From a virus: a stretch of 22,230 nucleotides of DNA. The stretch is taken from IMG/VR virus record IMGVR_UViG_3300007640_003802, positions 1-22,230 of that record, one strand, 5' to 3'. The notes beneath the pieces were generated by a model, which saw only the letters and a program-made list of their open reading frames with translations, was not told the DNA's origin and ran no database searches. This document shows, one piece after another, positions 359 to 18,700 of the stretch (position 1 is the first letter of the stretch; each line of letters starts with the position of its first letter). The translations under genes and the position numbers were made by a program.

Positions 359-1253
359 GACTTCTAAATTCCTTTCGGGTTCTATCCATATCCTGCTTAA
401 CTTTCTCTACACCAATACTATCACGCTGTAACGTGATATTCGCAAGCTGCCGTGCCAGTGCTTTTGGTTCAAGAATTGTCAAATTGTATTCAACAATCTT
501 CCTGACAATTTCTGGCATCATTTTTCCATTCAGGGTATTCAGGGTGACTGATAGGATCTTGTCCATCACTGCCCACGAACACTTAGAGAATGGTGCTTCA
601 CGATAATACCACAATGGCGGCAATCTTTCAACTACTGGTAATGCTCCCATTTTTATCGCTTCAAAAAATCTGAACGTTTCTGGACTGCTGGCCCCCGGTG
701 GGCATAGAACAACCTTAGAATCGTTAAGAAGGCCGATGTAATCGTCATGACTTAACCCCTTTCCAAATCCATCAGTAATTTCAACATAGTAATTGAACTT
801 GTCGCCAGTTTCCTTCATGAGTTTGTCAAGCCCACGCTTGAAAAAATCACGGGTTCCAGTGTCGGGAATCTGACCAATAAATGTGAAGTCATATTTTCTA
901 TCAGGTATTGGCTGCGGGTCTGGCATGTTGTCACAGTTGACAAAAGGTCCAAGCGGCAATGGATGTGTTATACAATTTAGGTACGGTAGTTCAAACTTAT
1001 CAAGCCAATGATAATTCTGAAAAATGAAATGTACTTCCTTTACGAAGAAGTCATGGGCTATGATATGCATCTCACGAGATGTTGAGAAAACTATGTTTAG
1101 CTTATCATCATTAAAGTTGTCCCAACCTCCCTGATCGTACTTAATGACAACACGATATTGCTCTGGTAGCATGTCTGCTAAATAACCAGCAGTATCTAAC
1201 AGAAACTTATTACCCTGATCAAATTCCTTATGCCAATCAATTAATTCTGCCAT
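348..1253 (-). CDS. exostosin-like glycosyltransferase (GT47-type C-terminal domain)
   Basis: The 301-residue protein has the signature of the exostosin family in its C-terminal half: YDFTFIGQI near residue 120, then YIGLLNDSKVVLCPPG followed by SSPETFRFFEAIKMGALPVV (about 172-208). This matches the family pattern of Y..L..S.FCL.P.G....R..EA...G.IPV and forms the nucleotide-sugar side of a GT-B fold. No signal peptide or membrane segment is visible, so it should act in the cytoplasm. It lies between the Cas4-like nuclease and polymerase III alpha, an odd place for a sugar transferase. It could glycosylate phage DNA, a virion protein or a host surface component; the sequence does not decide which. 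The family call is good, the acceptor is unknown. Confidence 0.7.
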   Translation of the reverse strand: MAELIDWHKEFDQGNKFLLDTAGYLADMLPEQYRVVIKYDQGGWDNFNDDKLNIVFSTSREMHIIAHDFFVKEVHFIFQNYHWLDKFELPYLNCITHPLPLGPFVNCDNMPDPQPIPDRKYDFTFIGQIPDTGTRDFFKRGLDKLMKETGDKFNYYVEITDGFGKGLSHDDYIGLLNDSKVVLCPPGASSPETFRFFEAIKMGALPVVERLPPLWYYREAPFSKCSWAVMDKILSVTLNTLNGKMMPEIVRKIVEYNLTILEPKALARQLANITLQRDSIGVEKVKQDMDRTRKEFRSHVE

Positions 1254-2275
1254 TAGCCTGGAGCCTCATAGTAATTGGAATCGAACCCGTCACGCTTTAG
1301 TTTCTCGGTAGCCTCATCATAGCCAAAAGCCCTTAAATGCTCTTCGGCATACTCACACATGGAGGTATTAGTTCCAGGCCACTTTGTCTTATAGAAATGG
1401 CATAGCTTAGTACACTTAAAGCTCTTGCGATCTCTTGAGCATGGTTGCGGAAAATCATTTCTGGTAATTGACTTCCATCGCTTCTCTAGCATTCCTAGAA
1501 ACTTTTGCTGGTCATCCTTATCAAAGCACATAGAGAAAGGTCCACCATCTCGTATGAAGAATATTGACATGATAGCCTGATCGTAGTCTGGAAACAACTT
1601 CGTAATAGCGTAGTTGTATAGTAGTAGCTGTGGGTCTTCACATAGTTTTTCATATGTCTTTTCCTCTCCAGTAGCCCAATTTAAACGGCGACCAGTCTTC
1701 CAGTCAATTACCTCAATAACACCATCGTCTATTTCTGTTACAAAGTCAATAGTACCCTTAATAGCAAGTCGCCCTTCTACGTCATTACCTTTATTATCCT
1801 TATAGGTAAACGTAGCCCATGGCTCATCAATAGGAATGTCAAAATGTGGTTCAGCGGCCACAATCTTTCTATTCCTTGGATCAAACTGACCATCATTATA
1901 TTCAATTGCTATCTGCACAAGCTCATCACAAAACTTGTAATCAGCATTGGTGTATTTATGAGTGCAATTAGAAGTGTAGTTTTCGTATGATTGCTTCAGC
2001 ATCTTGTCTACGAACTTTTTAGTATACAAAGCTTTTGGAGTACACTTAACTTCTCCAATAGCGTCATCCACTATCGTCAGACTCTTAGCGTCTGGGTTAT
2101 CCTGATGCTCTTTCTTAAGAGTGGCAAGAACCTCCATTACCTTATGGACAATAGTTCCAAGCTGTGCCTTCTTGCCAGATGGGGACTGATAGCCCAGCAC
2201 ATAGGTAAAATAGTATTGTAGCTGACAATACTCATACCCATTGTATGACGACGATCTAATGTAAGGACATAACAT
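1253..2275 (-). CDS. PD-(D/E)XK nuclease, Cas4/AddB-RecB-like, with probable Fe-S cluster
   Basis: The 340-residue protein carries the RecB-family nuclease motifs in order: GTIVH (40-44), GTIDF (174-178, Asp177), EVIDWKTGRR (188-197, Asp191 and Lys193) and QLLLY (216-220). An N-terminal Cys17 and C-terminal Cys288, Cys292 and Cys307 (Cys279 is also near) resemble the four cysteines that hold a 4Fe-4S cluster in Cas4 and AddB. Proteins of this kind degrade or trim DNA ends from single strands and often work with phage recombinases. No CRISPR array or other cas gene is present, so a recombination or end-processing role is inferred. The gene sits directly behind the dNMP kinase gene, whose TGA lies four bases upstream of its start, with AAAGGG as RBS. 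Confidence 0.8.
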   Translation of the reverse strand: MLCPYIRSSSYNGYEYCQLQYYFTYVLGYQSPSGKKAQLGTIVHKVMEVLATLKKEHQDNPDAKSLTIVDDAIGEVKCTPKALYTKKFVDKMLKQSYENYTSNCTHKYTNADYKFCDELVQIAIEYNDGQFDPRNRKIVAAEPHFDIPIDEPWATFTYKDNKGNDVEGRLAIKGTIDFVTEIDDGVIEVIDWKTGRRLNWATGEEKTYEKLCEDPQLLLYNYAITKLFPDYDQAIMSIFFIRDGGPFSMCFDKDDQQKFLGMLEKRWKSITRNDFPQPCSRDRKSFKCTKLCHFYKTKWPGTNTSMCEYAEEHLRAFGYDEATEKLKRDGFDSNYYEAPG

Positions 2276-2278
2276 GAA

Positions 2279-3103
2279 TCACCCTTTCTTAAAAGTATGA
2301 ATACCAGAAGTATTAGGTTCAGTTCGTGGCTGAATCTTACTTGGCACAACAGCTCCACCCAACCAGCCCCAACTCTCAAGAAGGCGAACTAGTTCTACAT
2401 TTACATCATGAATACCGAGATTAGCATTATCTATAACAGCGTCCATTCCATCATAGTTTGCCAATTGATTTTCGCTATGATGTGAATCTTCGTATGGGTT
2501 TCTTGTTAGATAAATAACCTTTCCACCAGCGTCCTGAATTGCCTCAACCTCATTTGGAAATCTTAGGTCGTCAATAACCGCAAGCAATGGCTGTTCTGCC
2601 TGTATGTCATCCACAAGACGCCGCTGCCAAATGTCTGGATAAATCTTACGGCACAGATCGCTACCAAAAAATTGTAGAAACTCTCTATTCGTCATGCGTC
2701 CAGTTTTGTCTGTGACCCCTGGCATGTCTTCCCATCTATACTTTGTCTTCAAGTCCTTCTGGGCATTGTTTCCGTATACCTCAGAACGATTCAACTTAAA
2801 CATATGGATACAGAATTCCTTTAGGGGGCGAGCCATAGAATAGCTCTTTACAAAAGGCCACATGTTGTATGCTGCCCATTCGGCAAATTCCATATCGCTA
2901 CGGTTTACATCTAGCATACCTTTTGACTCATACTCTTCGCCGTCCTCTGACTTAATGACAGATTCCACCATTAGCTTTCCATCTTCAAGAATGCTAAAGT
3001 TGTTAATAACACTATGGCATCTCATCTGATAGCCATGAAGAAAATTACTTGCTGTGGTCTTGCCAGCCTGCTTTGTGCCAGCAAATCCTATAATCTTTGT
3101 CAT
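2279..3103 (-). CDS. deoxynucleoside monophosphate kinase, T4 gp1-like
   Basis: The protein opens with a P-loop, GTKQAGKT (residues 9-16), and continues with features of phage dNMP kinases: SMARPLKEF, the stretch REFLQFFGSDLCRKIYPDIW, and VIDDLRFPNEVEAI followed by VIYLTRN. Enzymes of the family phosphorylate dNMPs to dNDPs at the expense of ATP and feed phage DNA synthesis. At 274 residues it is slightly longer than T4 gp1 (241), with the extra length in an insertion after the P-loop and a tail after residue 250 (the tail is low in recognisable motifs). The start shares ATGA with the primase stop, so the two are probably translated together. It complements the RNR and dUTPase genes farther upstream in transcription. 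Confidence 0.82.
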   Translation of the reverse strand: MTKIIGFAGTKQAGKTTASNFLHGYQMRCHSVINNFSILEDGKLMVESVIKSEDGEEYESKGMLDVNRSDMEFAEWAAYNMWPFVKSYSMARPLKEFCIHMFKLNRSEVYGNNAQKDLKTKYRWEDMPGVTDKTGRMTNREFLQFFGSDLCRKIYPDIWQRRLVDDIQAEQPLLAVIDDLRFPNEVEAIQDAGGKVIYLTRNPYEDSHHSENQLANYDGMDAVIDNANLGIHDVNVELVRLLESWGWLGGAVVPSKIQPRTEPNTSGIHTFKKG

Positions 3104-11853: not shown

Positions 11854-12327
11854 TTAACGTCCAGTACTGCCAAAGCCCCCGGTCCCACGATCAGATTCAT
11901 CCATAGAAGTGACCTCACCAATAGATACACATCCAATAGCCTGAACAAGAAGTTGTGCGATTCTATCGCCAATTTCTATTACTACTGGCTCATCTCCATG
12001 ATTCTGTAGAACAACGCAAACCTCGCCTCTGTATCCAGAGTCAACAACCCCAGCAAGTGTGTCGATGCCCTTCTTAACTGCCAATCCAGACCTGGGCCAA
12101 ATGAGCCCAACATAACCAGAAGGTATGCCAAGCACAAGCCCAGTTTTTACCATGGCTCTTTTACCTGGATCAATTACTAAATCCTGCACAGAACAAAGAT
12201 CATAACCAGCATCATCTGGGTTTGATTTTCTTGGCATTTGTGCCGTCTTAATAAGTCTTAAGACTTTTAGTTCAGTATTTGTAGACGTTGGAACAACAGT
12301 AACACCATGTGAAAAAATGTTTGTCAT
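11854..12327 (-). CDS. dut: dUTP diphosphatase, trimeric Dut family
   Basis: All five signature motifs of trimeric dUTPases are present in the 157-residue protein: DDAGYDL (38-44), WPRSGLA (77-83), GVVDSGYRGEV (93-103, with the conserved Asp96 and Tyr99), GDRIAQLLV (120-128) and RGTGGFGSTGR (147-157), whose Phe-containing tail closes over the base. The enzyme hydrolyses dUTP to dUMP and pyrophosphate, keeping uracil out of DNA and supplying dUMP for thymidylate synthesis. Its first 20 residues extend before the usual beginning of the fold. AAAGGA lies six bases before the ATG. It directly follows the ribonucleotide reductase gene, so the two are probably co-transcribed. Confidence 0.95.
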   Translation of the reverse strand: MTNIFSHGVTVVPTSTNTELKVLRLIKTAQMPRKSNPDDAGYDLCSVQDLVIDPGKRAMVKTGLVLGIPSGYVGLIWPRSGLAVKKGIDTLAGVVDSGYRGEVCVVLQNHGDEPVVIEIGDRIAQLLVQAIGCVSIGEVTSMDESDRGTGGFGSTGR

Positions 12328-12344: not shown

Positions 12345-14543
12345 TTATCTAATTTCGCAGCTTCCACCTGAGCAAGCCCATTCCTGTTCTGCTTTGACGT
12401 TGTTTTCCTCTTCGATTACTTCTGTATAATCAACGTCTGTATACTCTCTCCGCATGTCAACCCATTCTTTCCATACGAATACATCCTTCATGCAGTATGT
12501 TAGCATCTTTAGGTCGCCATTCATGTACTTATCAGCAAAACGTTGGCATCGCTCCAGATACTCCTGCTTGTCTTTGCCCTTAATCTTTTGACCAAAGCCA
12601 AGCAGACTATCGCAGGCTGCCCATAGATTATCCTCAAACAATCTTAGGCCAACTTCAATAAGACCGCTAACAAAAAGTGAAGCATCACCATAACGTTGTA
12701 CCTGTTCAGTTGGCAGATAGACAGTAGTGAATGGTGCTTGTGCATAATCTTTATCACCAGCAATTGGAAGTAGCGACACACCACAGAAATACTGTCTGTT
12801 GTCATACAGGAAGTTTGTAACTTCTTCCCATTCATCTGGCTTTACATTGATAGTGTTGGAAACATTGTGAACAAGCCACTTCTGAGTGCATAGCTCAGGA
12901 TTAGTACCATTTACAACCCAGCTCTGCTGTGTGCTTTTCACATAGTTTAACAAGTCTACAGCATCAAGCTGATTCTTGGTCTTTGACCCGTCTGGAACCT
13001 CAACACAGAATGATACAACATCATCTGAGTCGTTATTTGACCATACGCTTTCTTCACAAGCTCTTGGGTTCTTGCCTCTGAAGTGCTGATAAATTGGTTC
13101 CATCTTGTTGGCCTGAACGCGACGAATGTAACGCTTGGCGTGATGTGGGTGAATACCAGACGATGTTCCAAGAATACAACTGGAAGTGCCTTCTGGCTTA
13201 ACACATGTTGTACGTGCCGCTTGGTTAATACCAATAAGATGGGCAACCTCCTCGTTGGTTTCTCTTACTATTGTAGCACCACGCTTCTGAATTTCTGGAT
13301 CTAGACAGATCTCATGTTGTTCCATGATACCAGTCATTGAAACACCAAGCAGTGCTTCTCTGGCGATAATACGCTCAGATACTTCACCCAGATATGGGAA
13401 AGTACTAAATCCAGCTTGAAGTGTACCAATGATAGCAGCAGACACGCAAGCATCATAAAAGTCTTGCTCTGTCTTGACCTTGGCACAGTTAATAGTTGAC
13501 AGATTACATGCCTGCCAACCAGTTTCTCCGGTCTTTTCATCAACAGGCCACATGCCAATCTCAACGCATGGATTAACAATAAGCTCAGTTGAGTCTGACC
13601 AAATAAACCCAGGCTCTCCAAATTCCTTAACAGAACTCATTAGTTCTGAAAATTCTTCCAGAGTGGTTTTATCTCTTAGCAAGAGAGCAGAATTGTTAGA
13701 TCTACCTCTTTGTGGATTTTCTATAAACCAATTTCCTGTCTTAGCCTTTGCCATTTCTTCGTCATCCGGCGAGAACACGCAGATAGTTGCACTCCTACGA
13801 ACCCCACCGCTAATAACAGCATCAGCAGCGTACATAACAATATCATATGCATCAACCGACTTTAGTCGATCACCTCCGTTTTTAATAACTCTCTCAAAAA
13901 CTTTTTTGATGTTGTTTAAAGCCTTTTTAAGCGGTTCTGGTCCCGGTGCTTTTCCTCCACTTGATTTGAGTAGTGATCCAGCGGGTCTAATCTGTGAATA
14001 ATCAAACGTAACATTCTTAGCATTATAACCTGGAAACAACTCGCAATCATCAAAATAACTGCTAACAAGAACCCCAACTGCATCTGACCATCCTTCTATT
14101 GAGTCTTCTATAACGAACTTCTTTGAGCCGCTCTTGCTCTTTACGAAATTTGGTAGTTTTCCTACGTGATGTGTTTGTACTGAAAACCCAGTGCCACATC
14201 CGCATAGCAGGAGATACATACACTCCTGAAAAAATCGTGGCCTATCGGCGTATGAGGCAATACAATTGTAAATACGTGCGTTATGCTTGAACACAGGGCT
14301 GCCACCAAACTGTAACGCTCTCTGTGATCCTAGAATCTTTTTCTTTTTCATGTCATCATAAGCACGATTGATAAGATCAGCAATCTTACCATCAGCATCC
14401 TGCTCTGGACTAGCATATGCGTCCAGCATCATCTGGCGAACGCGATCAACTGCTTCCTGCCACGTTTCGCGTCTCTTCTTTTCTGGAATCCATCGGGCAT
14501 ACTTAGATACAAAAGTGTAGTTCATCAATGATTTTAGTGACAT
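12345..14543 (-). CDS. class II (adenosylcobalamin-dependent) ribonucleoside-triphosphate reductase, monomeric type
   Basis: The 732 residues match the length and layout of the monomeric B12-dependent reductase of Lactobacillus (about 739). Cys94 in NARIYNCIASY, Cys326 in NPCVEIG with Asn324 and Glu328, and Cys347 in WQACNLSTINC form the active-site set: Cys326 the thiyl cysteine, Cys94 and Cys347 the disulfide pair. SGGVRRSA (245-252) is the family motif before the radical loop, and the C-terminal Cys724 and Cys729 (CSGGSC) match the swinging re-reduction pair. No class I metal-binding residues or class III glycyl-radical tail are seen. It converts NTPs to dNTPs without oxygen but needs host cobalamin. 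An AAGGAG sits about 11 bases before the ATG. Confidence 0.93.
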   Translation of the reverse strand: MSLKSLMNYTFVSKYARWIPEKKRRETWQEAVDRVRQMMLDAYASPEQDADGKIADLINRAYDDMKKKKILGSQRALQFGGSPVFKHNARIYNCIASYADRPRFFQECMYLLLCGCGTGFSVQTHHVGKLPNFVKSKSGSKKFVIEDSIEGWSDAVGVLVSSYFDDCELFPGYNAKNVTFDYSQIRPAGSLLKSSGGKAPGPEPLKKALNNIKKVFERVIKNGGDRLKSVDAYDIVMYAADAVISGGVRRSATICVFSPDDEEMAKAKTGNWFIENPQRGRSNNSALLLRDKTTLEEFSELMSSVKEFGEPGFIWSDSTELIVNPCVEIGMWPVDEKTGETGWQACNLSTINCAKVKTEQDFYDACVSAAIIGTLQAGFSTFPYLGEVSERIIAREALLGVSMTGIMEQHEICLDPEIQKRGATIVRETNEEVAHLIGINQAARTTCVKPEGTSSCILGTSSGIHPHHAKRYIRRVQANKMEPIYQHFRGKNPRACEESVWSNNDSDDVVSFCVEVPDGSKTKNQLDAVDLLNYVKSTQQSWVVNGTNPELCTQKWLVHNVSNTINVKPDEWEEVTNFLYDNRQYFCGVSLLPIAGDKDYAQAPFTTVYLPTEQVQRYGDASLFVSGLIEVGLRLFEDNLWAACDSLLGFGQKIKGKDKQEYLERCQRFADKYMNGDLKMLTYCMKDVFVWKEWVDMRREYTDVDYTEVIEEENNVKAEQEWACSGGSCEIR

Positions 14544-15899: not shown

Positions 15900-17006
15900 T
15901 TATGATTTTTCATAGACCGTGTTGTGAGTATTATTTACCCTAATAAAGGTTGTCTTCTTGCCAAAATCCTTAATAGAACCAGCACCAATATACGTGCCTA
16001 CACTTCTAAGACCGCCAAGAATATCAGAGATTACTTCGTCAGTAGTTCCCTTGTATGGAATTCTAACACACTTGCCTTCACTGGTTCTATAGTTGGCAAC
16101 TCCACCATTATGCTTATCCATGGCCTCTTTGCTTGACATACCATAAAATTTCAGTGCTGTTTTCCTCTTGCCATTACCAGTTGATGGGTCAAATGGCTGC
16201 CAGAATTCTTTCTGCCTGTGAAGACATCTGAATTCATACTCCCATTCGCCCTCACAGCAATCAGATCCAGCCAACATACCACCAAGCATTACGAAGTCAG
16301 TATTAGCTCCAAAAGCCTTACAAACGTCAGCAGGAGTCTTACAGCCACCATCGCTACAGATATGAGCATTAACACCATGGGCGGCATCAGCACATTCCAT
16401 AACTGCACTAAGTTGAGGGTAGCCAACTCCAGCCTTTAATCTTGTCGTACAAACACTTCCAGAACCAATTCCAATTTTGACAACATCAACGCCACCATGG
16501 AGAACTAATTCTTCTACCATTTCTGGTGTAACAACGTTGCCAGCCATTATTATAACATCAGGATGACGCTCTCTTATAAGACTTAGTGTTTTGACAAACT
16601 GCTCAGTATATCCATTTGCAACATCAACGCAGATGTTAAGACTTCTATCTAGCCTCGTAAAAACCTCCTCCATTTTATCAAGATCATTACAACTAGTACC
16701 AGTAGAATAAAACACAAGATCATTATTACTACCCTCTTTCTCAAAATACTCGACATACTCATTTATAGCATAGTGCTTATGAAGACATGTAATACATCCT
16801 CTTTGAGAGAGAGCGTCTGCCATTTTCATGGAACCAGTTGTATCCATATTCGCCGCCATAACTGGAACACATTCAATTGTTCTAGGGGAATGTGGGAATA
16901 TGAACTTTCTGTAGAGATCTACATCTGCTCTACTAGTAAGGAAAGACCGCTTAGGTCTAATCAAAACATCATCAAAGTCTAGCTTAACGTCTTCAATAAT
17001 CTTCAA
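15900..17006 (-). CDS. guaC: GMP reductase
   Basis: The 368-residue protein belongs to the IMPDH/GMPR barrel family and looks like GMP reductase. It has LDFDDVLIRPKRS, the active loop GIGSGSVCTTRLKAG with Cys186 in the same position as E. coli GuaC, then GVGYPQLSAVMECADAAH, ICSDGGCKTPADVCKAFGA and VMLGGMLAGSD. There is no CBS pair, and the usual length is about 346. The enzyme reduces GMP to IMP with NADPH and releases ammonia, turning guanine nucleotides toward IMP and AMP. The start is TTG (17004-17006), with AAAGGAG seven bases upstream; the next Met is residue 50, inside the barrel. It follows a deoxyribosyltransferase-like gene, so both probably reshape the purine pool. Confidence 0.9.
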   Translation of the reverse strand: MKIIEDVKLDFDDVLIRPKRSFLTSRADVDLYRKFIFPHSPRTIECVPVMAANMDTTGSMKMADALSQRGCITCLHKHYAINEYVEYFEKEGSNNDLVFYSTGTSCNDLDKMEEVFTRLDRSLNICVDVANGYTEQFVKTLSLIRERHPDVIIMAGNVVTPEMVEELVLHGGVDVVKIGIGSGSVCTTRLKAGVGYPQLSAVMECADAAHGVNAHICSDGGCKTPADVCKAFGANTDFVMLGGMLAGSDCCEGEWEYEFRCLHRQKEFWQPFDPSTGNGKRKTALKFYGMSSKEAMDKHNGGVANYRTSEGKCVRIPYKGTTDEVISDILGGLRSVGTYIGAGSIKDFGKKTTFIRVNNTHNTVYEKS

Positions 17007-17013
17007 TTGTGAA

Positions 17014-17020
17014 CTCCTTT
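17014..17020 (-). promoter_or_regulatory. RBS for the TTG start of GMP reductase
   Basis: AAAGGAG lies seven bases before TTG at 17006. No ATG or GTG occurs near this position in frame, and the domain begins at once (LDFDDVL from residue 9). The site therefore supports a TTG start, which lowers translation relative to ATG and could be deliberate. Confidence 0.75.
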
Positions 17021-17023
17021 AAA

Positions 17024-17554
17024 TTAAATGTCAAAAAAGTACCATCTATTTTGATTGTCAAAAGTGGGAGAGCTATTTACGGATTCCAAGTATCGCTTTA
17101 ACTCTTCCCAATCACTAAAAATCATATTATGAGGTATGGTTCCAAACAGCCAATCTGGGGCTTGACTTTTACCCTGCTCCACATGAACTAATATGGGTTT
17201 TTTCTGCCTATTCGCACAAAAAATTTCCTCATACGTGCCGCATGGATGGACTGATAAATCCAAGTTGACAATAATGAAATCAGAAATGTCTACCATTCTT
17301 AGGTCAACAGATCTAATGTTCTTCATGATTGAGGCTAATTCATCATACTTTCCTTGAGACTTTAGCTCCTTTTTGAGTATGTGAGTAGTCTCATCTTCCA
17401 CGCCAATTTTGCATGGCTTACAGGTAGGGTTAAAGACCGTGACACCAAGATTGGTTAGGAACGGAGTAATATACTCCCTCCACTCAACGCCACGATCCTT
17501 CACCCTATCCATAGCCCCAACTAAATAAACACGTTGTCCATTTAGTCTGTTCAT
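17024..17554 (-). CDS. nucleoside 2-deoxyribosyltransferase-like protein
   Basis: The 176-residue protein follows the family pattern: a first strand and loop QRVYLVGAMDRVKDRG (7-22), WREYITPFL, VTVFNP (38-43), a middle helix pair, then MVDISDFIIVNLDLSVHPCG followed by TYEEIFCANRQKKPILV (87-123). The Asp92 and Glu109/Glu110 positions are the ones expected for substrate binding and the catalytic nucleophile. Such enzymes move 2'-deoxyribose between bases or hydrolyse damaged or unusual deoxynucleotides. An unusual C-terminal tail ends WYFFDI. The start at 17554 is chosen because GGAGA lies five bases upstream, rather than TTG at 17566. It shares an operon with GMP reductase and the sigma-like gene. 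Confidence 0.72.
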   Translation of the reverse strand: MNRLNGQRVYLVGAMDRVKDRGVEWREYITPFLTNLGVTVFNPTCKPCKIGVEDETTHILKKELKSQGKYDELASIMKNIRSVDLRMVDISDFIIVNLDLSVHPCGTYEEIFCANRQKKPILVHVEQGKSQAPDWLFGTIPHNMIFSDWEELKRYLESVNSSPTFDNQNRWYFFDI

Positions 17555-17562
17555 ACATCTCC

Positions 17563-18018
17563 TCAATTATTGTTACACTCGTCAATAGCCTGATTGATTC
17601 TTCGCCGTGCCGTTTCACGGGAATAACCATTGGCCTCGCCAATCTCTTGAATTGTCATGTTGCCATAGTACCTCTGGCGTAGAATTTCTGCTGACTCTGG
17701 CTGAATGCTGTTCAGAATGTCGAATGCTTCCGAACCAGAGTAGTCATGGTACACCTTTTCAATGTCCTCAGTAGCATAATCACGCTTCTTGGAATTCTTC
17801 TTCAGTTGATTCTTAAAAGCGTAATTTAGCTGCTGATAAAGATAGGATGTGAACTTAGCCTTTCTATCTGGGTCATACTTTTGTGTGCATCTCCACAAAG
17901 TGGTGAGTGAGATAGACGAAATGTCATCTTCATCTAGAAAGTATCTGTACTTATTTCCAACACTCTTCATTATCGAACGCACACTATTGTCACTCAAGCA
18001 ATCGTCAATATTAAGCAT
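17563..18018 (-). CDS. compact sigma-70-like factor
   Basis: The 151-residue protein has a region-2-like block (about 27-75: FLDEDDISSISLTTLWRCTQ, then YDPDRKAKFTSYLYQQLNYA) and a C-terminal region-4-like helix-turn-helix (about 108-145: ESAEILRQRYYGNMTIQEIG followed by ANGYSRETARRRINQAID). Region 1 and most of region 3 are missing, as in T4 gp55 or small ECF factors. It would recruit host RNA polymerase to phage promoters, perhaps the late class. The start at 18018 is set by a GAGGAGG site; the longer version to 18069 adds unlikely N-terminal residues and overlaps the previous gene. No anti-sigma gene is visible next to it. Confidence 0.75.
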   Translation of the reverse strand: MLNIDDCLSDNSVRSIMKSVGNKYRYFLDEDDISSISLTTLWRCTQKYDPDRKAKFTSYLYQQLNYAFKNQLKKNSKKRDYATEDIEKVYHDYSGSEAFDILNSIQPESAEILRQRYYGNMTIQEIGEANGYSRETARRRINQAIDECNNN

Positions 18019-18024
18019 ATAATG

Positions 18025-18031
18025 CCTCCTC
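18025..18031 (-). promoter_or_regulatory. near-perfect RBS of the sigma-like gene
   Basis: GAGGAGG on the minus strand lies six to seven bases before ATG at 18018, preceded by a run of six T. It is among the strongest ribosome sites in the window and decides the start, which leaves a 19-base gap to the upstream stop. Confidence 0.75.
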
Positions 18032-18037
18032 AAAAAA

Positions 18038-18700
18038 TTAGTCGTTATTGTGAATAATGATCCCTCCAACCATATTCTTTAGTGCGGTAAGTTTGGCTAC
18101 GCTATCCAAATAAGCCTTGTTCATCTCGTTTGAACTCACGTACTCAACTGACCCGTCCACTAGGACCATTATAGACCAAAACTTTTCCTTGTCAAGCTGG
18201 CTTTTCACCAAATCCACGGTTTCGCTGACATTTATATCCGACAGAATTTCCTCCTCGGTATATGTGCAAAGCCCTTCTTCAATATCCTTACGAACGTCGC
18301 TGATCTCAAAAAGCTTGGCAACGCCCACAAAGAAGGTATATCGACCTAAAACCCTCAAAGCTTCAACGCCTTCTATAGACTCGATAAGGTCTGCCATAGA
18401 CCCCTTAATCTCAAAATTTGTGTAGCCTAACCAGCAATCCCATCTTTTTGACGGGAGCATGAAAGAATCTTCGTTGAATATTCCAACAGGAGTTTCTATC
18501 ATCTCTTTTTGTGGCATGAAAAACATGCCTGGAGGACCAAGGGCGTCATCCATGTCGTCTTCCATTTCTTCTTCATCAGAATCTAACAGTTTATCTTGCA
18601 ATAAAGAAGACAGAGATGGTCCCTTTTGGGCTTTAATTTCTTCCTCGATTACATTCCAGCTTTCCCATGCAATCTTTTTTACTTTTGGCTTTGTGTACAT
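18038..18700 (-). CDS. uncharacterised protein with acidic segment
   Basis: The 220-residue protein is unrecognised. A basic N-terminus (MYTKPKVKKIAWESW) is followed by a strongly acidic patch (40-52, DSDEEEMEDDMDD), then a likely alpha/beta domain (about 70-215: IFNEDSFMLPSKRWDCWLG, then RVLGRYTFFVGVAKLFEIS) with a C-terminal IIIHNND. The acidic patch could mimic DNA or dock a basic partner. There is no signal peptide or membrane segment. It precedes the sigma-like gene by 19 bases, so the two are probably expressed together. GGAG lies seven bases before its ATG. Function unknown. Confidence 0.65.
   Translation of the reverse strand: MYTKPKVKKIAWESWNVIEEEIKAQKGPSLSSLLQDKLLDSDEEEMEDDMDDALGPPGMFFMPQKEMIETPVGIFNEDSFMLPSKRWDCWLGYTNFEIKGSMADLIESIEGVEALRVLGRYTFFVGVAKLFEISDVRKDIEEGLCTYTEEEILSDINVSETVDLVKSQLDKEKFWSIMVLVDGSVEYVSSNEMNKAYLDSVAKLTALKNMVGGIIIHNND

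Follow-up and report, generated by a model that had tools for sequence, protein, structure and literature searches.

A GMP reductase gene paired with a gene of the NDT superfamily in uncultured phages

Introduction

DmtZ of the Gordonia phage Ghobes is a phage enzyme of the nucleoside 2-deoxyribosyltransferase (NDT) superfamily that hydrolyses dNMPs and moves the deoxyribose 5-phosphate to another base, 2-aminoadenine being an acceptor of this transfer (PMC12884076). On the side of the pyrimidines, a shift of host nucleotides toward A/T has been proposed, in an argument from composition, for the dCMP deaminase and thymidylate synthase genes that roseophages carry (PMC11981692). Phages with genes for the nucleotide pool are nothing new, and earlier annotations of GMP reductase exist among phages; a study on the deep ecotype of pelagimyophages mentions the enzyme in passing (PMC7029224). 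The phages Cr30, XacN1 and RAS14 also have genes annotated as GMP reductase, and CM1 carries one in a record that holds no annotation.

In this work, we analysed a virus record of 22,230 bases (hereafter the window) in which a gene for GMP reductase (GMPR) follows a gene for an NDT-like protein. The window covers 22 kb of the genome of its phage, and the searches for genome content rest on relatives. In the literature searched, the GMPR-NDT pair is not described; what is new, as far as that literature shows, is the conserved linkage of the two genes and an uncharacterised NDT family.

Results

The GMP reductase gene

The pair and the gene that precedes it are arranged as follows:

15900-17006, minus strand: GMP reductase (GuaC/GMPR1 type), 368 aa, TTG start
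17024-17554, minus strand: NDT-superfamily nucleotide enzyme, 176 aa, ATG start, with putative catalytic Tyr10, Asp84 and Glu110
17563-18069, minus strand: sigma-70-like factor with regions 2 and 4, 8 bp upstream of the NDT-like gene

The start codon of the GMPR gene, a TTG at 17006 with AAAGGAG upstream, is found 17 bp past the stop of the NDT-like gene, whose own Shine-Dalgarno sequence overlaps the sigma-like gene at its stop codon. From this tight spacing we infer that the sigma-like, NDT and GMPR genes probably form one operon.

Judged by its sequence, the product of the GMPR gene is a complete and intact GuaC-type GMP reductase, for which NADPH-dependent conversion of GMP to IMP is predicted. 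It matches Pfam PF00478 (IMPDH/GMPR) at 8e-64 and phrog_9582 at 1.8e-106, and its full-length match to the GMP reductase equivalog NF003470 exceeds the curated cut-off (484 bits, cut-off 397); with a second GMPR model, TIGR01305, it scores 441, below the cut-off of 492, a shortfall that possibly comes from its insertion. This insertion adds some 20 residues after the GGMLAG/GSMFAG loop and ahead of the YGMSS motif, and is present in most of the phage relatives as well; it is missing in most bacterial homologues, in one viral relative (L082) and in the cultured phages with a measurable loop. The closest cellular GuaC proteins share 50-55% identity with the protein, and the nearest solved structure is that of human GMPR1 (2ble). 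The catalytic Cys, Thr and Glu and the GMP-binding Asp are kept (C186, T188, E310, equivalent to E289 of hGMPR1, and D219), and the hGMPR1 positions K78, D129, C186, T188, D219 and E289 are identical in 67 out of 67 distinct phage GMPRs. In the tree, this lineage's phage GMPRs group into one phage-only clade (support 96/100) separate from the bacterial GuaC proteins. The enzymes of Cr30, XacN1, RAS14 and CM1 belong to the same family, with 40-44% identity to that of the window, and fall outside this well-supported clade; the cultured-phage sequences are long branches of unsure placement.

The NDT-like gene

The gene at 17024-17554 encodes a divergent member of the NDT superfamily, predicted to be a base-exchanging or base-removing nucleotide enzyme. 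Its product scores slightly under the cut-off of PF15891 (2.8e-6, 28 bits, cut-off 30) and under that of PF05014 (7e-4, 20.2 bits, cut-off 28.8), and both profiles are matched by all 54 aligned members of the family (E <= 0.01). A search of the family sequences against the PDB gave no relevant match, and only the fold search succeeded: with the AlphaFold model (pLDDT 88), the top match was 7o62 (CtNDT, an NDT transferase; Z 15.1, 133 residues, 2.5 A), and the N-hydrolases DNPH1 and MilB were matched too (Z about 12.5). With DNPH1/Rcl, MilB and the NDT transferases (7o62, 8pqt) the protein thus has in common the fold (VIA Z about 12-15) and the Tyr/Asp/Glu triad, at an identity of about 15-22%. 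The Tyr, Asp and Glu columns are invariant across 54 sequences of the family. The preliminary description had read the two genes as a GMP reductase and a deoxyribosyltransferase-like protein, and both identities hold, the former through NF003470, the Pfam match and the intact catalytic positions, the latter through the NDT fold matches and the kept triad.

Pro104 occupies the position that in nucleoside-type NDTs holds the Asp binding the 5'-OH, a correspondence that we take from the NDT of L. leichmannii; this replacement suggests that the enzyme would accept 5'-monophosphates rather than free nucleosides as substrates.

The catalytic residues of the protein were placed by motif spacing to Tyr6, Asn77 and Glu103 of DmtZ and not by superposition (PMC12884076). 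The spacing agrees with that of DmtZ with no gaps: the specificity Asp follows the Tyr by six residues, and the Glu follows the catalytic Asn/Asp by 26. At the site of DmtZ Asp12 the window protein likewise has an Asp, and it also shares a Pro near Pro57 and an uncharged residue at the 5' pocket position. It differs from DmtZ in having no PurZ partner in 30 large relatives and no detectable sequence similarity (BLAST E 13, hhalign probability 0.2%), and homology of the two proteins, for which BLAST and hhalign give no signal, was dropped.

Both genes are under purifying selection, with median pairwise dN/dS values of 0.18 for GMPR and 0.16 for NDT (about 0.17).

Conservation of the pair

A search with GMPR only gave 80 viral loci, the best 80 of 357 IMG/VR stretches that encode a relative, and an independent search with the NDT alignment gave another 80; the two lists share contigs and hold many closely related loci, such that the counts that follow are not counts of independent events. 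The NDT gene lies upstream of GMPR on the same strand in 77 of these best 80 GMPR loci, separated by a median gap of 214 bp (34 gaps of at most 50 bp). In a further locus, L044, it is found 11 kb upstream, with an island of sugar genes in between, and in the two loci where no NDT was seen, L029 and L043, the contigs end 1.9 and 0.9 kb upstream of GMPR. Conversely, GMPR follows downstream on the same strand in 73 of the 80 independently found NDT loci, and in four of the seven others the contig ends within about 0.8 kb. In L098, the NDT gene is directly followed by the glycosyltransferase gene that elsewhere comes after GMPR, from which GMPR appears to have been lost there while NDT was kept; in L109 and L111, NDT stands in other gene contexts with no GMPR.

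The phage records searched hold a single homologue of the window NDT family, in the metagenomic huge phage LR756511, where no match to GMPR was found. No NDT-like gene of this family was found in Cr30, XacN1 and RAS14, which have a GMPR and in this differ from the window. The pairing is therefore conserved, yet not obligate, and its carriers are many uncultured phages, mostly water-dwelling. The two enzymes had been described beforehand as a pair, and this pairing indeed extends over many phage contigs (77 of the best 80 of 357 GMPR loci). The accompanying statement that GMP reductase is unusual in phages holds only with qualification: a relative is encoded in 357 IMG/VR stretches, and Cr30, XacN1, RAS14 and CM1 each have one.

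Islands of genes for glycosyltransferases and sugar-nucleotide epimerases, very variable in content, were observed immediately upstream of the NDT-GMPR pair or within it (L004, L065, L265, the last being the region that precedes GMPR in the L044 record, and others). Separately, lone NDT genes at L111:5695-6231 (GC 56%) and L088:7938-8507 (GC 40%) have similar-looking neighbours in an apparent tail/baseplate region, and both are on the strand opposite to most of these neighbours.

Genes for DNA precursors and for base modification

Three further genes of nucleotide metabolism are encoded in the window:

2279-3103, minus strand: deoxynucleoside monophosphate kinase, by profile matches
11854-12327, minus strand: canonical dUTPase, TIGR00576 above cut-off
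12345-14543, minus strand: adenosylcobalamin-dependent (class II) ribonucleotide reductase (RNR), by profile matches

They had been described as nearby; all are within the window, and none is adjacent to the pair. Gene content was sampled in 30 large relatives, which are incomplete contigs of 114-244 kb. Class II RNR, dNMP kinase and dCMP deaminase (above cut-off) were each found in 28 of the 30, ThyX in 23, and a phosphoribosyltransferase above cut-off in three only. PurZ/PurA (PF00709) was found in none of these 30 incomplete contigs, with the controls matched in 14 out of 14 cases; ThyA-type enzymes or dUMP/dCMP hydroxymethylases and QueC of the queuosine pathway were likewise found in 0/30. 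A search for Tet/JBP gave no match in the relatives, but its controls were also unmatched.

A DeoC-like protein was observed beside structural genes (L037:14495-15151; cluster c7, 69 loci in all; TIGR00126 at 4e-14). A route from dNMP through deoxyribose 5-phosphate to an aldolase, suggested by the place of this gene near the pair in relatives, was considered and dropped: with xPSTG for KTSTG the protein has lost the Schiff-base Lys, and it probably does not function as a deoxyribose-phosphate aldolase. Another protein, of about 180 aa and encoded upstream of NDT (L025:652-1200; cluster c11, 57 loci in all), looks by eye like a macro (ADP-ribose-binding) domain; Pfam did not confirm this, with a best E of 0.21 in one of 20 members.

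Discussion

The general theme of purine-pool remodelling that had been proposed for this locus is supported. We favour, with a probability of about 0.6, the reading that the pair is part of an ordinary phage programme for DNA precursors, with GMPR shifting purines from G to A beside the pyrimidine route from C to T. GMP, coming from degraded host RNA or from the host pool, would be converted by GMPR to IMP, which PurA and PurB of the host would convert to AMP, with RNR and kinases then giving dATP; the step from IMP to AMP must be the host's, because PurA was not found in the 30 relatives. The purine pool would thereby move from G to A in parallel to the shift from C to T by dCMP deaminase, dUTPase and ThyX, and together they would push the nucleotide pool toward A/T, suiting DNA of low GC. 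Raising dATP by draining guanine nucleotides was the part of the preliminary description that fits best, although we infer the pathway itself. We are less sure about the NDT-like protein, which may act on 5'-mononucleotides and, by way of a covalent intermediate at Glu110, cut or swap the base of dNMPs; in this way unwanted dNMPs could be trimmed or bases salvaged, and an exotic base would not be needed. The roseophage dCMP deaminase and thymidylate synthase genes are likewise proposed to work toward A/T, in the pyrimidine branch, whereas GMPR would do so in the purine branch (PMC11981692). Conversion from C to T by phages is well known, and a matching purine branch, from GMP to IMP, in many environmental phage contigs would, if true, round off the account of how nucleotides of the host are rebuilt by low-GC phages.

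The base composition is consistent with the precursor programme. The loci of the relatives have 28-37% GC (median 32%), which gives a genomic A:G of about 2.2; the window, with 41%, has the highest GC in the set and still keeps GMPR, and L111, with NDT and no GMPR, has 56%. Cultured phages with a GuaC-type GMPR have a local GC of 38-50%, and the GC of their hosts is roughly 65-67%, such that the three cultured carriers examined are low-GC phages of high-GC hosts, a relation that is a correlation only. Phage GC is usually below that of the host, so the link to composition may be only this base rate. The earlier proposal of an altered DNA composition is borne out only weakly, as a matter of base balance, and is not supported where modified bases were meant.

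The alternative that survives best, and one to be taken seriously even if we do not expect it, is that the two genes are neighbours by common descent only, independent accessory metabolic genes with no joint pathway, which would be compatible with the precursor programme. Each gene also occurs singly elsewhere among phages, synteny among relatives extends to the wider region, and the sugar-gene island of about 11 kb parts the two genes in L044. Against it, the linkage on one strand is kept in all testable loci among the best 80 of 357 for GMPR, despite differing genes between and around them, and the window keeps the pair where the adjacent glycosyltransferase and the other neighbours seen in relatives are gone. 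L098 without GMPR, NDT alone in LR756511 and L111, and GMPR alone in Cr30, XacN1 and RAS14 mean that the two enzymes need not work in one coupled pathway.

Interference with host signalling or defence is unlikely in our estimate: either a nucleotide signal would be destroyed by the NDT-like enzyme, or GMPR would lower the pool derived from GTP (GTP, ppGpp, guanine-based messengers). N-glycosidases do occur among NDT-superfamily enzymes, and the macro-domain-like gene often lies just upstream in relatives, but its assignment by eye was not confirmed by Pfam, and the partners that co-occur with the pair are genes for DNA precursors, with no defence or signal gene shown beside it. Equally doubtful is a stronger version of the purine shift, in which the NDT-like protein would be a natural deoxyribose-5-phosphate transferase swapping the purine base on dNMPs and would make up, with GMPR, a two-enzyme shunt from G to A (dGMP to dIMP/dAMP) at the monophosphate level, widespread in uncultured aquatic phages.

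We consider it very improbable that phage DNA receives an unusual purine nucleotide (dI, dZ or a new base) through GMPR and NDT, the latter moving deoxyribose 5-phosphate onto that base as DmtZ does for 2-aminoadenine (PMC12884076), for although the window protein has the catalytic layout of DmtZ by motif spacing and the Asp at the Asp12 position, and glycosyltransferases flank the pair in relatives, it lacks detectable similarity to DmtZ in sequence, PurZ/PurA, ThyA-type hydroxymethylases and QueC are found in 0/30 large relatives, and the precursor genes present are canonical. Chemically altered DNA (diaminopurine, inosine, queuosine), for which PurZ and queuosine genes had been the suggested checks, consequently finds no support in these relatives.

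Two observations concern other genes in these records. In XacN1 (L086), two genes, one annotated as poly(ADP-ribose) polymerase and the other a von Willebrand factor A gene, are found at 1092-3023, about 4 kb upstream of the GMP reductase gene. At 2-358 of the window, cut by its end, there is a PHP-domain protein with a DnaE-like start, suggesting that this phage has a replicase of the bacterial Pol III alpha type.
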